From: a virus | Length of the DNA stretch: 29,198 nucleotides | Strand: one strand, 5' to 3' | Virus record (IMG/VR): IMGVR_UViG_3300037070_002005 | Location: 1-29,198 of that record | Shown: in pieces, positions 1,596 through 7,835 of the stretch | Position numbering within the stretch: the stretch's first letter is position 1 | Layout: every line of letters begins with the position of its first letter | Position numbers and translations under genes: made by a program | Notes under the pieces: generated by a model | The model's input: only the letters and a program-made list of their open reading frames with translations | Told to the model about the DNA's origin: nothing | Databases searched by the model: none

Positions 1596-3551
1596 ATGTT
1601 TGAATATTATCAAAATACTCTTTGCGTTCATGGAACCTGGTTATGGGAGAGCGAAATTATTTCGTTTGACTATTACAGACAATTAAGTAGTAGAGGTCAA
1701 ATCAAAAAACTAACAGTTGGCGGTAACGGTCGCAAAGCATTAGTCGCTTACGAGTCGATTCCTGACCGCTTCAAGAAGTTGATTCGCGAAAAAGTAGGTG
1801 ATCCTTACGCCTCAGTTAAAAACATTGTTTTTGGTGACTATATGGATTGGGACCACAATGCTGAAATCTATTTCAGAGACTATCTACTTGACAACGGTTC
1901 GCATCTTCCAGAGGAAAAACAACAGGAGTACACGCACCAGGCGATAATGTTCAATGCGGTGAAGCACATTGCTACAAACGTAGTAGTTCAAAAGCGTTTT
2001 GGAGGTAAAAAACAAATGTGGGACAGAATGCTTGAAGCTATCGGGAACTTACCTGAAACATGGTTGCACACTCGTTACAAAAACGTGGTTTCGTTCAAGA
2101 GAGCCATTCAAAAATACGAGCAAGAAGGTTACAGCTCTATCGTTTCGGGTAAATGGATGAACTCGAATCCATCAAAAATAATAGACGAGGTTGCCGATTT
2201 CATTATGGCTCAATATTGTCTCCCTGTAAAGTACACGATTTCGGAAGTATTGAAAATCTACGAATCAGTAAGAGAAGCAAGAGGTTGGAAAAGTTTAAGC
2301 GAGCGTGCTGTTGGAGCTTGGCTCGACAAAACAGAGCAAAAAAGAGTATGGATGTTGGCTCGTGACGGTAAAGAGGAATACATGAAACATTTTGGTCACA
2401 CCGTAACTCGTAAACGTACTGAATGGTTTCCAAACGCTTGGTGGGCGATTGATGGTACTAAGTTGGATTTAGTACACTTCGCTAACAACAAACAAAAGAT
2501 GGCTGCTGAACTTAAAATCAACGTTGTTTTTGATGTATACAGTGAAAAAATAATAGGTTGGGACATTGCATACTCAGAAAACCACGCTTCGCACTTTAGA
2601 GCAATCAAAATGGCGGTTGGCGAATCAGGATGCAGACCGTTCTTATTTACTTATGATAAGCAATCCGGTCACACCTCAAACAAGATGCAAGATTTGTACG
2701 ATAAGCTTCCCGCAAAAGGCGGAACGCACTACAGCCACAAGGTTGGTCGTAAATCAAGTCCAGCGGAACAGATTTTTAACCGACTACAACAACAGGTTAT
2801 TTCTAAAATGTGGTTCTCGGACAAACAAGGTATCAAGGTCAGAACCGCAAGCAATAAACCCAACACCGATTTCATTGTTGAGTATAAAAATGCCTTGCCA
2901 ACGGTTGACGAATTCAATAAAATCTTTTCTGCCTTGGTAAACAAATGGAATGCAGGCAAACAAGAGGATTGGGAATACAACAGAATCGAAATGTACAATC
3001 AGGAAACCGAGCATAGAGAAGAAATCAACATTATGGATCAGTTGTCAATGTTTTGGATTGACGAAACCAAGGTTAAGAAATACTACGCTCACGGAATGCC
3101 TCTTACTGTTGAAGGTAAAGACTATATCTACGAAGTGTATGACGAAACCAACAATATTGATTTGGACTTCCGTAGAAAGTATGTAGGTGAAAGTCTAATT
3201 GTACGATATGATCCTGAGCGATTGGATGAGTTTGTTGGATTGTATGAATTGACACCATCAGGAGAAAAGAGATTTGTTGCCTATGCACAATCCAAACGTA
3301 TGCATGAGTCTATTCCTGTGTTGATGAAAGGAAATTCAAAAGAAATGTTGCTCAAAGATATTGCCGTTCGTGATGCAGAATTGAAAAGAGACTCAGAAGC
3401 CTACGAACGATTAATAAATCGAACAGGCATCAGTCGAGAGAGTTTAATCGAAGAGCAAGAATTGATGGTCAAGTTTCAGGGGCATCTACCCAAGGAGGAA
3501 CAGATGGCAACCGATTCAAGCGCATTTCACTCTCGAATGTCAAAATATTAA
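1596..3551 (+). CDS. Mu-type DDE transposase (MuA-like)
   Basis: This 651-residue protein is the probable transposase/integrase that inserts and replicates the phage by transposition. MuA has 663 residues, so the length fits. The N-terminal ~250 residues carry DNA-binding helical domains that would bind the end repeats. The catalytic core has an RNase H-like DDE triad: Asp286 in WWAIDGTKLD, Asp354 in FTYDKQSGH, and Glu391 in SSPAEQIFNRLQ. Spacings of 68 and 37 residues are reasonable for the family. The C-terminal ~200 residues contain a Mu-transposase-type beta domain (around DLDFRRKYVGESLIVRYDP) and probably the region that meets the ATPase. It is followed by a repeat array and the MuB-like gene. 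Confidence 0.95.
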   Translation: MFEYYQNTLCVHGTWLWESEIISFDYYRQLSSRGQIKKLTVGGNGRKALVAYESIPDRFKKLIREKVGDPYASVKNIVFGDYMDWDHNAEIYFRDYLLDNGSHLPEEKQQEYTHQAIMFNAVKHIATNVVVQKRFGGKKQMWDRMLEAIGNLPETWLHTRYKNVVSFKRAIQKYEQEGYSSIVSGKWMNSNPSKIIDEVADFIMAQYCLPVKYTISEVLKIYESVREARGWKSLSERAVGAWLDKTEQKRVWMLARDGKEEYMKHFGHTVTRKRTEWFPNAWWAIDGTKLDLVHFANNKQKMAAELKINVVFDVYSEKIIGWDIAYSENHASHFRAIKMAVGESGCRPFLFTYDKQSGHTSNKMQDLYDKLPAKGGTHYSHKVGRKSSPAEQIFNRLQQQVISKMWFSDKQGIKVRTASNKPNTDFIVEYKNALPTVDEFNKIFSALVNKWNAGKQEDWEYNRIEMYNQETEHREEINIMDQLSMFWIDETKVKKYYAHGMPLTVEGKDYIYEVYDETNNIDLDFRRKYVGESLIVRYDPERLDEFVGLYELTPSGEKRFVAYAQSKRMHESIPVLMKGNSKEMLLKDIAVRDAELKRDSEAYERLINRTGISRESLIEEQELMVKFQGHLPKEEQMATDSSAFHSRMSKY

Positions 3552-3624: not shown

Positions 3625-4470
3625 ATGACACATCAAGAAAAAATACAAACCGTTGAAGCATTAGAAGCATTCGTTTTACAAAAAGGCTCACAAAATCAAG
3701 TTGCTTTAGGTATGCCCGGAGTATCGGCAGCGACATTAACCCAAATGAGAAAACACAATTGGGAAAGTATCTCAGATGATATGTGGCGTAGAGTATCCAA
3801 ATACGTGGGTGTAACTGCCAGCGGTTGGAACTATGCAGAAACCCGTAACTCTAAAGATTTAGAATTGTTTTTTCAAGATGGTCAATTGTTCTCATTAGTA
3901 ATGGCTATTACAGGAAAGGCAGGTGCTGGAAAATCGGAAACGGCTAAAAAATACGAAGCTGAAAACAAAAACGCCTTTTTATTGTCATGTAATGAGTATT
4001 GGGATAAACGCTGGTTTTTAAGAGAGCTATTAAATAAAATGGGCAAAGACCATGCGGGATTGACTTTACCTGAAATGATGCACAAAGCGGTGTTACTTCT
4101 AAAATCATTAGAAAATCCAATAATAATCTTAGATGAAGCCGATAAACTGCACGACAATGTACTTCTATTCTTTATCACTCTTTACAACGCATTAGAAGAT
4201 CACTGCGGTATCGTTTTGATGGCTACTCACTTCTTAGAAAAGCGTATTAGACGAGGTGTGGCAATGGAAAAAAAAGGCTACAGAGAAATATACAGCCGTG
4301 TTGGTCTTCGATTCATCGAATTGGAAAGCACGAGTTACAGCGATATTGAAAATATATGCAAGGCAAACGGGATTGAAGATAGTGTCATTATCAGAACTAT
4401 ATCGAAAGATTGCGACGGTGATGTTAGAAGAGTAAGAAGATTGGTGTTTTCAAACAAAAGAGCCTCTTAA
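3625..4470 (+). CDS. MuB-like transposition AAA+ ATPase
   Basis: This 281-residue protein is the probable transposition activator and target selector that works with the transposase. MuB has 312 residues. An N-terminal lambda-repressor-like helix-turn-helix spans about residues 5-65. The AAA+ domain shows Walker A GKAGAGKS (97-104), Walker B IIILDEAD (166-173), a sensor-1-like MATH segment (199-202), and arginines at 225 and 229 in SRVGLRF that may act as the arginine finger. The C-terminal part (DCDGDVRRVRRLV) fits the small AAA lid. It follows the transposase directly, as A and B do in Mu. Confidence 0.93.
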   Translation: MTHQEKIQTVEALEAFVLQKGSQNQVALGMPGVSAATLTQMRKHNWESISDDMWRRVSKYVGVTASGWNYAETRNSKDLELFFQDGQLFSLVMAITGKAGAGKSETAKKYEAENKNAFLLSCNEYWDKRWFLRELLNKMGKDHAGLTLPEMMHKAVLLLKSLENPIIILDEADKLHDNVLLFFITLYNALEDHCGIVLMATHFLEKRIRRGVAMEKKGYREIYSRVGLRFIELESTSYSDIENICKANGIEDSVIIRTISKDCDGDVRRVRRLVFSNKRAS

Positions 4471-6361: not shown

Positions 6362-7072
6362 ATGAACACAGAAACACAAGAAAACCCAATCGACCTAAGC
6401 AAAGCAACTCCTCAACAGCTAAAAGAACAATTGGCAAAATTCGAAGCCAAAAAAGACGAGGATAGAGAAGCATACAAAAAATTGGTTGCCGAAACGGTAC
6501 CAAAAGCAATATTTGAACTTTGCCAAGCATCTGCAATAATTAGCGATGCCAAAACTAAAACGTTCAAATTCTTTGAGGATATTTTAGACTTGAAAAACCA
6601 AGTGTACGGACTTAAAGAAAAACAACAGTCTCACACCTTTTCAACCGATAAAGAAGAAATTACAATCGGTTACCGTATCAACGATGGCTGGGATGATACC
6701 GTTACAGCAGGAATCGAAAAGGTAAATAATTACATTTCCTCATTGGCTACCAATGCCGAAACATCCGCGCTGGTAAATGTTGTTTTCAACCTCCTGAAAA
6801 AAGATGCTAAAGGAAACCTGAAAGGCTCACGAGTTCTGGAACTTCAAAAACTAACAAAGGACTTCAATAATGCAGAATTCACCGATGGTGTTGGAATTAT
6901 TGCTGCTGCTTATAAGCCTGTTCGCTCTTCTTGGTTCATTGATGCTAGTTTAATCAATGCAGACGGTTCTAAAACATCAGTTCCCTTGTCTATGTCCTCA
7001 GTTGGGTTTTTAAGCGGTTACAAGTTCGATTTCTTTAGTGAAACAATTCCCGAAGCCAATGCAACCGAATAA
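6362..7072 (+). CDS. DUF3164 family phage protein
   Basis: This 236-residue protein matches the DUF3164 group found in Mu-like phages, upstream of GemA. Residues about 15-50 form a charged coiled-coil (QLKEQLAKFEAKKDEDREAY). The C-terminal third carries the family-like segment KPVRSSWFIDASLINADG followed by a hydrophobic end. The biochemical role is not known; its constant place in the early region suggests DNA replication or transposition support. Recognition is from memory of the family pattern and is fairly confident. Confidence 0.8.
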   Translation: MNTETQENPIDLSKATPQQLKEQLAKFEAKKDEDREAYKKLVAETVPKAIFELCQASAIISDAKTKTFKFFEDILDLKNQVYGLKEKQQSHTFSTDKEEITIGYRINDGWDDTVTAGIEKVNNYISSLATNAETSALVNVVFNLLKKDAKGNLKGSRVLELQKLTKDFNNAEFTDGVGIIAAAYKPVRSSWFIDASLINADGSKTSVPLSMSSVGFLSGYKFDFFSETIPEANATE

Positions 7073-7244
7073 TAACAACCTCAGTATAATAGTGCTATTA
7101 GTAATCCTACTAGCACTATTCAACGGAAAAGACATATTTGACTATTTCGTATGGCTAAAATTCAAAATCAGAACCTTTTTTAAACAACTCGAAAATGAGC
7201 GTAAGGATAGTACCAATAATAGATCACGAATCATACAGCGTTAA
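7059..7244 (+). CDS. Small membrane protein
   Basis: 61 residues from the ATG at 7059, overlapping the DUF3164 stop by 14 bases. Residues about 8-21 are a single hydrophobic segment (LSIIVLLVILLALF) followed by an aromatic, basic tail (FVWLKFKIRTFFKQ), consistent with one membrane span and a cytoplasmic tail. An ATG at 7038 in the same frame is possible but lies deeper in the upstream gene. It overlaps the next gene by 50 bases, so one of the pair could be spurious. Confidence 0.55.
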   Translation: MQPNNNNLSIIVLLVILLALFNGKDIFDYFVWLKFKIRTFFKQLENERKDSTNNRSRIIQR

Positions 7245-7401
7245 CGGCAAAGAGGTTTATAAAGATGGTAACGGTAATTGGGTTAACCGTCAGGAATTGA
7301 CCTCACAAGAAGCCACCGCCTTTACTAATTACAAGAAAGCCGTAATTAATAATACAGCTTTTAAAAAGCATACAAAAGCGACTTACAACCCAAAAAAATA
7401 A
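7195..7401 (+). CDS. Small hypothetical early protein
   Basis: 68 residues, basic, with a compact N-terminal part (YSVNGKEVYKDGNGNWVNRQ) that reads as a short beta-sheet unit, and a helical C-terminus. It overlaps the membrane-protein frame by 50 bases. It is followed by the tRNA-like gene. No family recognised. Confidence 0.6.
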   Translation: MSVRIVPIIDHESYSVNGKEVYKDGNGNWVNRQELTSQEATAFTNYKKAVINNTAFKKHTKATYNPKK

Positions 7402-7418
7402 GGTTAGTTAATTCGGTT

Positions 7419-7558
7419 TCCTGAGTGGCGAAAATGGTAGACGCCGACGGTAGTTCAATGCAACGTAATTGCCCGTAAATGAGTTCACATAAGAGAGGTT
7501 AAACAAGTTGAAACTATAAAGGACTACTCTCATACAGGTTCGAATCCTGTCTCAGGAA
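7419..7558 (+). tRNA. tRNA-Leu-like gene with expanded anticodon/variable region
   Basis: The acceptor stem TCCTGAG (7419-7425) pairs perfectly with CTCAGGA (7551-7557), discriminator A7558. The D arm GCG-AAAATGGTAGA-CGC (7428-7444) is of tRNA-Leu type. The T arm ACAGG-TTCGAAT-CCTGT (7534-7550) is canonical, and CCA is not encoded. Between D and T arms lie about 88 bases where a Leu tRNA needs 31-35. This region can form ACGG/CCGT (7447-7450/7473-7476) around GCAA/TTGC, and GAGAG/CTCTC (7493-7497/7527-7531) in the place of a variable arm, but I find no proper 7-base anticodon loop. It is a tRNA with an insertion, a pseudo-tRNA, or a tRNA mimic. Confidence 0.6.
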
Positions 7559-7580
7559 CAAATTTTAAAACAACAGCAAA

Positions 7581-7835
7581 ATGTATACAATAATCGAATT
7601 AGAAGACAACGGACAGGATTTTTTAGAATTAGTAACTAATCATGTTGGCATTATCATAGATGCCAAGCCATTCCAAAAAGAAGCATGGGAAGGCGGAATA
7701 ATCCCAATTTTTGATCAAGAAATGTGTGTAGTCGGTGAGTCTTTGCCAATACATAAACCACCACATATAAACTTTGGCTTTTTGAAGCATAATATTAAAT
7801 CAATAAAAAAGGTAGAAAGCTATGAAATCCAATAA
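7581..7835 (+). CDS. Small hypothetical early protein
   Basis: 84 residues; first gene after the tRNA-like element, 22 bases downstream of it. It shows a beta-rich fold with two halves (FLELVTNHVGIIIDAKPFQ, GGIIPIFDQEMCVVGESLP) and no membrane span. It overlaps the next gene by 14 bases. No family recognised. Confidence 0.65.
   Translation: MYTIIELEDNGQDFLELVTNHVGIIIDAKPFQKEAWEGGIIPIFDQEMCVVGESLPIHKPPHINFGFLKHNIKSIKKVESYEIQ

Follow-up and report, generated by a model that had tools for sequence, protein, structure and literature searches.

Phage Context and Structure of the Element

The window (the whole stretch of 29,198 nt that was analyzed) is part of a Mu-like, transposable phage, since it contains genes for a MuA-type transposase, a MuB-type ATPase and a Mu-type portal. 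The phage is a Mu-like phage of Bacteroidota, and its host group is Flavobacterium-type bacteria. Within the early operon, which carries the transposase and ATPase genes, the coding strand contains a tRNA-like sequence located 17 nt past the stop codon of a small ORF; the ATG of the following ORF lies 23 nt downstream of the element (Table 1). In a cluster of 16 elements, the gene in front of the element is a homolog of the upstream ORF. In the tRNA-like sequence, an acceptor stem and a D arm are followed by 88 nt and then by a T arm; a usable anticodon is lacking. A preliminary description, made from the DNA alone, had placed this element in the early operon, co-directional and between two genes, and had reported its three arms, the 88-nt replacement of the region between the D and T arms, and the lack of a readable anticodon. 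The coordinates, the pairing of the arms and the exact count of the inserted bases agreed with this, and ARAGORN found no tRNA in the window. The 17-nt flank preceding the element was present in many relatives and missing in L113, L133 and L134. The folding energy of the element (z = -1.74) would not by itself prove the element; the proof came from comparison.

Table 1. Features of the window and of one related subfamily.
Feature	Position	Strand	Remarks
MuA-type transposase	1596-3551	+	phrog_310; same operon as element
MuB-type ATPase	3625-4470	+	phrog_296; same operon as element
DUF3164 / phrog_846 protein	6362-7072	+	Used to collect relatives
Upstream gene, 68 aa, no known family	7195-7401	+	ORF and homolog comparison
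5' flank GGTTAGTTAATTCGGTT	7402-7418	+	Conserved among close relatives only
Acceptor stem, 5' strand TCCTGAG	7419-7425	+	Pairs with CTCAGGA, 7551-7557
D arm, tRNA-Leu-like, loop GG 7436-7437	7427-7445	+	Retained in 6/6 insert copies
88-nt insert between D and T arms	7446-7533	+	Length exact
Helix ACGG/CCGT (7447-7450/7473-7476), at the position of an anticodon stem, around hairpin GTT/AAC (7453-7455/7462-7464), loop CAATGC	7447-7476	+	Covariation
Pseudoknot TTCA 7484-7487 with TGAA 7509-7512, interleaved with GAGAG 7493-7497 / CTCTC 7527-7531	7484-7531	+	Covariation
T arm ACAGG[TTCGAAT]CCTGT	7534-7550	+	Sequence, family and six-copy comparison
Acceptor stem, 3' strand CTCAGGA (7551-7557), and discriminator A7558	7551-7558	+	No encoded CCA
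A-rich leader CAAATTTTAAAACAACAGCAAA, reaching the ATG of the next gene	7559-7580	+	Similar leader in most relatives
Downstream gene, 84 aa, phrog_27241, function unknown	7581-7835	+	phrog match
Subfamily with six-pair T stem	L013:360-420, L098:1520, L025:5733, L075:5531, L119:1667, L150:2135		Absent from the window

A Family of tRNA Top Halves

Relatives were gathered using the DUF3164 protein encoded just upstream of the element. In dozens of related Mu-like phages of Bacteroidota, this site of the operon was occupied by sequences that were alike in their outer parts and very different in the middle. The part that was kept corresponds to the top half of a tRNA: a contiguous acceptor/T stem of 11-12 bp, a TTCRANY T loop and a GG like that of a D loop. 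The middle part ranged from 8-14 nt up to about 110 nt, as in the element of L108 (TCCCGAG-CATGAAGGTTCTT-GCAGG[TTCGAGT]CCTGC), which has a linker of 13 nt, the elements of L062 and L113, which are tRNA shapes with overlong anticodon arms, and those of L095 and L089, which are nearly complete tRNA shapes. Nothing in the anticodon half was common to the family, and ARAGORN calls in the relatives were scattered (Phe, Thr, Asp, Ser, Trp or unreadable), most loci with an element yielding no call. A functional tRNA was rejected on the basis of these calls and of the absence of any call in the window, where the Rfam tRNA model gave only a partial match of 14.5 bits; the cut-off of the model is 29 and was exceeded by a few relatives whose anticodon arms are long. 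In three phages (L094:5204-5343, L086:11121-11257, and L300) two tRNA-like pieces were joined head to tail, and the outer acceptor strands paired with each other across the whole fusion.

When 2.34 Mb (redundant loci included) were scanned for a TTCRANY loop on a contiguous 12-bp acceptor/T stem, 68 matches were obtained on the coding strand and one on the other strand. Among 40 distinct top halves, two-sided changes were found in 11 of the 12 pairs, with 29 further pair types (0/500 shuffles), and this signal collapsed when the pairing was slid by one column. Because pairing was a requirement of the scan, the figure of 99% paired cells follows in part from the search itself, which does not hold for the strand bias or for the diversity of pair types. 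In the acceptor stem, two-sided changes affected every pair among the six copies of the insert described below, and almost every pair in the whole family. The compensatory changes indicate that RNA pairing, and not DNA identity, is what selection has acted on.

A covariance model search, the check proposed for this interval in the preliminary description, was carried out with a model trained on ten elements with linkers of 12-14 nt only, the window element being outside the training set. The model matched the window at 7403-7581 (40.9 bits, E = 2.7e-6), and 35 of its 35 matches in relatives were on the coding strand. Most of its strong matches in 299 Flavobacterium genomes adjoined a phage DUF3164 gene, the exceptions being one contig too short to judge and a tandem pair in one genome (L296/L304), which has the same gene-junction style; the exceptions with lower scores were one real tRNA and some chance matches. 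In IMG/VR, ordinary tRNA arrays made up most of what a loose pattern for short elements retrieved; after filtering and with a stricter pattern, additional contigs remained that were Mu-like or related.

The geometry of the top half was constant. The stem totaled 11-12 bp, while the break between acceptor and T stems slid (7+5, 6+6 or 5+7). GG was present in all 23 distinct linkers of up to 30 nt, whereas shuffled linkers contained it in 14.3 cases on average and in 21 of 23 at most (5000 trials). This pattern is the signature of a stack of fixed length together with a tRNA elbow. Both RNase P and RNase Z clamp the elbow, and RNase P in addition measures distance along the stacked T and acceptor stems (PMC4919913).

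Placement at Gene Junctions

From the scan, 56 distinct elements were retained for analysis. They usually began 6-35 nt after a stop codon, and the next ATG usually lay 21-27 nt past the element. The flanking proteins were unrelated, falling into 30 clusters for the following genes and 31 for the preceding ones. In some phages (L133, L085, L054, L025, L075, and L098) a single early region contained two to five elements, of which one immediately preceded MuA. A close relative, L005, had no element and its genes abut, and in many Flavobacterium prophages of the same phage family no element was detectable. Since these phages do without it, the element is not essential; it is an optional device at gene junctions. 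Short top halves (TCCCAAACGGTTTTTTGGAGCGG[TTCGATT]CCGCTCCTGGGA) were repeated between successive early genes of an Elizabethkingia-type phage family (L133:10891, 11823, and 13398; L085:1633, 2624, and 3427), where they are followed by a leader ACAACGAATTTT...TAATA. Directly before the MuA gene of several relatives lies another subfamily, which has the linker AGTGGCACACT and a T stem of six pairs (Table 1).

The 88-nt Insert

The insert of the window element recurred in five other phages: the Mu-like L104 and four outside the Mu-like set (L155, L156, L307, and L308), in which no match to MuA, MuB or DUF3164 was seen. Terminase genes are present in L155 and L156, whose copies of the insert sit in arrays alongside tRNA and further RNA-like sequences. 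In the six copies every pair of the acceptor stem had changed with compensation, long stretches of the insert were invariant, and the discriminator A and the Leu-like D arm were retained in all six. No other copies were recovered: the search of 299 Flavobacterium genomes gave chance matches only, and that of 50,697 annotated phage records gave none. In a comparison of the insert with the phage genome for antisense pairing, the longest match was 11 nt, with one such match expected by chance.

An exhaustive helix search over the six copies revealed two covarying helices. The hairpin was found as GTT/AAC, GGA/TCC, GAT/ATC and GCC/GGT around CAANGC, and the pseudoknot helix, which the preliminary description had missed, as TTCA/TGAA, CCAA/TTGG and CTAA/TTAG; the pseudoknot region also contains a conserved loop, GNTAAACAAG. 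After column permutation, a helix as good as the pseudoknot appeared in 1 of 1000 trials, and pseudoknot and hairpin together in 0 of 1000. GAGAG/CTCTC, a helix already proposed in the preliminary description, was invariant across the copies and compatible with pairing. Of the fold ACGG/CCGT around GCAA/TTGC suggested there, ACGG/CCGT pairs in the six copies, with one A-U to G-U change, and GCAA/TTGC found no support: it breaks in relatives and is replaced by the covarying hairpin. Two further candidates were discarded, namely the minimum-energy pairing GTAGTTC/GGACTAC, broken in relatives, and a hairpin at 91-93/105-107 of the six-copy alignment, whose first pair forms in only two of the six. 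In the final model all 32 pairs form in all six sequences. As judged from this comparison, the insert is a conserved, structured, phage-borne RNA domain and not noise, and it is apparently undescribed.

Sharing of bottom domains was not restricted to this insert. At least four of them were common to different phages: that of the window, L104, L155, L156, L307 and L308, that of L090 and L111, that of L062 and L113, and that of L086 and L094.

A Putative Processing Signal in the Early mRNA

We consider it probable that the element is an RNase P/RNase Z processing signal that divides the early polycistronic mRNA. The top half, with its coaxial acceptor/T stack of 11-12 bp and its T-loop/D-loop elbow, would mimic a pre-tRNA. 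The expected cleavage sites are before 7419 for host RNase P and after 7558 for host RNase Z. These presumed cuts would part the upstream mRNA from a downstream mRNA bearing a short A-rich leader of about 22 nt to its ATG, may affect gene expression, and together would release a 140-nt RNA. The bottom half would be dispensable for processing and has been deleted or exchanged many times; in the window phage it is the 88-nt structured domain common to unrelated Bacteroidota phages. RNase Z matches were found in 41 of the 41 Flavobacterium genomes tested, and bacterial RNase P cuts phage RNAs and polycistronic mRNAs (PMC11143913). Some observations count against the processing reading. The element has no encoded CCA or RCC, the bases after the stem being RCA. 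Its absence from L005 and from many prophages is a second point. A conserved and shared insert exceeds the needs of a mere processing site. In L155, L156, L307 and L308 no start codon directly follows the window-type element, so that there it is not obviously an mRNA divider.

Among the alternatives, the least plausible is an intron-bearing or decaying tRNA-Leu gene, which we regard as extremely unlikely, even though the D arm resembles that of tRNA-Leu and the elements of L095 and L089 are almost complete tRNAs. An intron and a degraded tRNA were two of the three options in the preliminary description, the third being a mimic that meets RNase P, aminoacyl-tRNA synthetase or an anticodon nuclease without decoding. 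The relatives have neither an exon junction nor an anticodon in common, as reflected in their scattered ARAGORN calls, and some have no anticodon arm at all, which makes an intron very unlikely; no Rfam intron family matched in the window. The stem decay expected in homologs of a dead tRNA was contradicted by compensatory changes at every acceptor pair, and the insert was more conserved than the acceptor stem. The mimic, as a partner of RNase P, was the option that found support: across many phages strong covariation preserves the top half, the part recognized by RNase P and RNase Z, while the decoding half is replaced or deleted. (A weak group I intron match, 30.8 bits against an Rfam cut-off of 50, was noted at L159:5070-5349, in an unrelated viral contig.) Compensation at 11 of the 12 pairs also largely refutes a DNA-level boundary, or a mobile tRNA-derived repeat, that would aid module recombination without any RNA function. 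Such a role would be in line with the near-identical copies inside single genomes (L133 and L085), the free exchange of neighboring genes and the movement of bottom halves between phages, but the coding-strand bias of the scan speaks against it as well, and it is very improbable.

Two other readings keep a function in the RNA. An uncut leader, that is, a 5' UTR structure controlling translation, stability or elongation of the next gene in cis, would be consistent with the fixed distance to the ATG and the similar A-rich leader downstream; however, the following genes are unrelated, and what is conserved is specifically the tRNA elbow and the 11-12 bp stack and not a generic hairpin, so that we hold this to be distinctly unlikely. 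Somewhat easier to entertain, and still unlikely, is that the element is primarily a free small RNA, a mimic or decoy binding a host or defense factor that handles tRNA (a toxin, a nuclease or a synthetase). RNase P and RNase Z would then merely release it, and the intergenic site would be a convenient place for early expression. Conservation of the insert in six phages and two genome contexts, the sharing of other bottom domains by distant phages, and the retained discriminator A and Leu-like D arm are in favor of this, and the early operon position would suit counter-defense. But most family members have no decoding half, many being only 43-45 nt, and a decoy leaves unexplained both the spacing to the ATG and the presence of up to five copies at the gene junctions of one operon.

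Returning to processing as the main role of the family, the conserved insert suggests that in the window phage the released RNA has an action of its own, and a separate role of the insert as a small RNA, beyond processing, is very probable. As a more tentative possibility, the top half would be a scaffold for swappable RNA domains, and the window element would yield a released, CCA-tailed and perhaps leucylated 140-nt RNA whose pseudoknot acts in trans on host translation or defense, representing a new class of phage tRNA-scaffolded small RNA.

Relation to Known tRNA-Like Elements

The MALAT1-derived mascRNA and tRNA-like viral RNAs are tRNA-like modules with a reduced anticodon arm that RNase P and RNase Z excise from a longer transcript. 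Modules of the mascRNA type are eukaryotic and lie at the 3' end of one long non-coding RNA, whereas the elements described here are repeated dividers of an operon. The t-elements of plant mitochondria are tRNA-like, non-decoding sequences at gene ends that processing enzymes read as tRNA, thereby generating mRNA ends, and they have no encoded CCA (PMC11658184). Their mRNA ends are made by RNase P and RNase Z cleavage, and a CCA tail is added without aminoacylation. The phage elements resemble them in being tRNA-like and non-decoding, in encoding no CCA and in lying at the ends of protein-coding genes in the sense of the transcript, as seen in their strand bias and stop/ATG spacing. They differ from t-elements in their occurrence in phages of bacteria, in a bottom half that is either 8-14 nt or a swapped domain, in the several copies per operon, and in cleavage that is presumed for the phages. 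Other non-tRNA substrates of RNase P include the C4 RNA of P1/P7, M3 RNA and polycistronic mRNAs (PMC11143913). Compared by their descriptions, these are listed as single cases, whereas the phage element is recurrent, with its T loop, elbow GG and constant stack at many junctions.

Like tmRNA, the window element joins tRNA-like ends to a pseudoknotted domain. It differs from tmRNA, whose D loop lacks a D stem, in having a complete D stem (four pairs in the six-copy alignment), in the lack of a tag frame common to all copies, and in its size of about 140 nt. A tmRNA with a seven-codon tag was rejected because the frame, MSSHKRG in four copies with a synonymous change as the sole difference, is absent from L307/L308, and an ARAGORN tmRNA search of the window found nothing.

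In the literature searched, with most subscription journals outside its scope, no description of such phage elements was found, and none was found in Rfam. tRNA-like processing sites were already known; what appears to be new is a phage family of constant geometry whose bottom domains can be swapped and some of whose members are stripped down, to which the predicted pseudoknotted RNA domain inside the window element adds a separate novelty. If the processing reading is true, bacterial phages use on their early mRNA the tRNA punctuation known from mitochondria, and the stripped-down elements would reveal what tRNA-trimming enzymes need in nature. Rfam and ARAGORN overlook such elements. The insert is a covariation-supported pseudoknotted RNA in unrelated phages, and any function of it is directly testable.

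Additional RNA Domains in Related and Unrelated Phages

The phages L090 and L111, whose DUF3164 proteins are 83% and 63% like that of the window, carried another bottom domain of 93 nt (L090:7312-7435 and L111:7707-7830), in which TGCCTTG or TGTCTTG is followed by CAAGGCA, with GATGCAGCCCGCCACCC inside; no Rfam family matched it. In the RNA-gene arrays of the two non-Mu Bacteroidota phages (L155:5500-6509 and L156:3120-4345, both on the minus strand), structured-looking conserved stretches without Rfam match were observed (GGACAACCGAAAG...GGTTGTCC and GTGACCWCGAGCAAGAAAAACCG...GGTCAC), as well as a stretch of about 200 nt closed by AAAGCAGTT/AACTGCTTTT, also without Rfam match. The same arrays contained further tRNA shapes that lack a usable anticodon and are longer by 40-50 bases, at L155:6234-6353 and L156:4174-4290.
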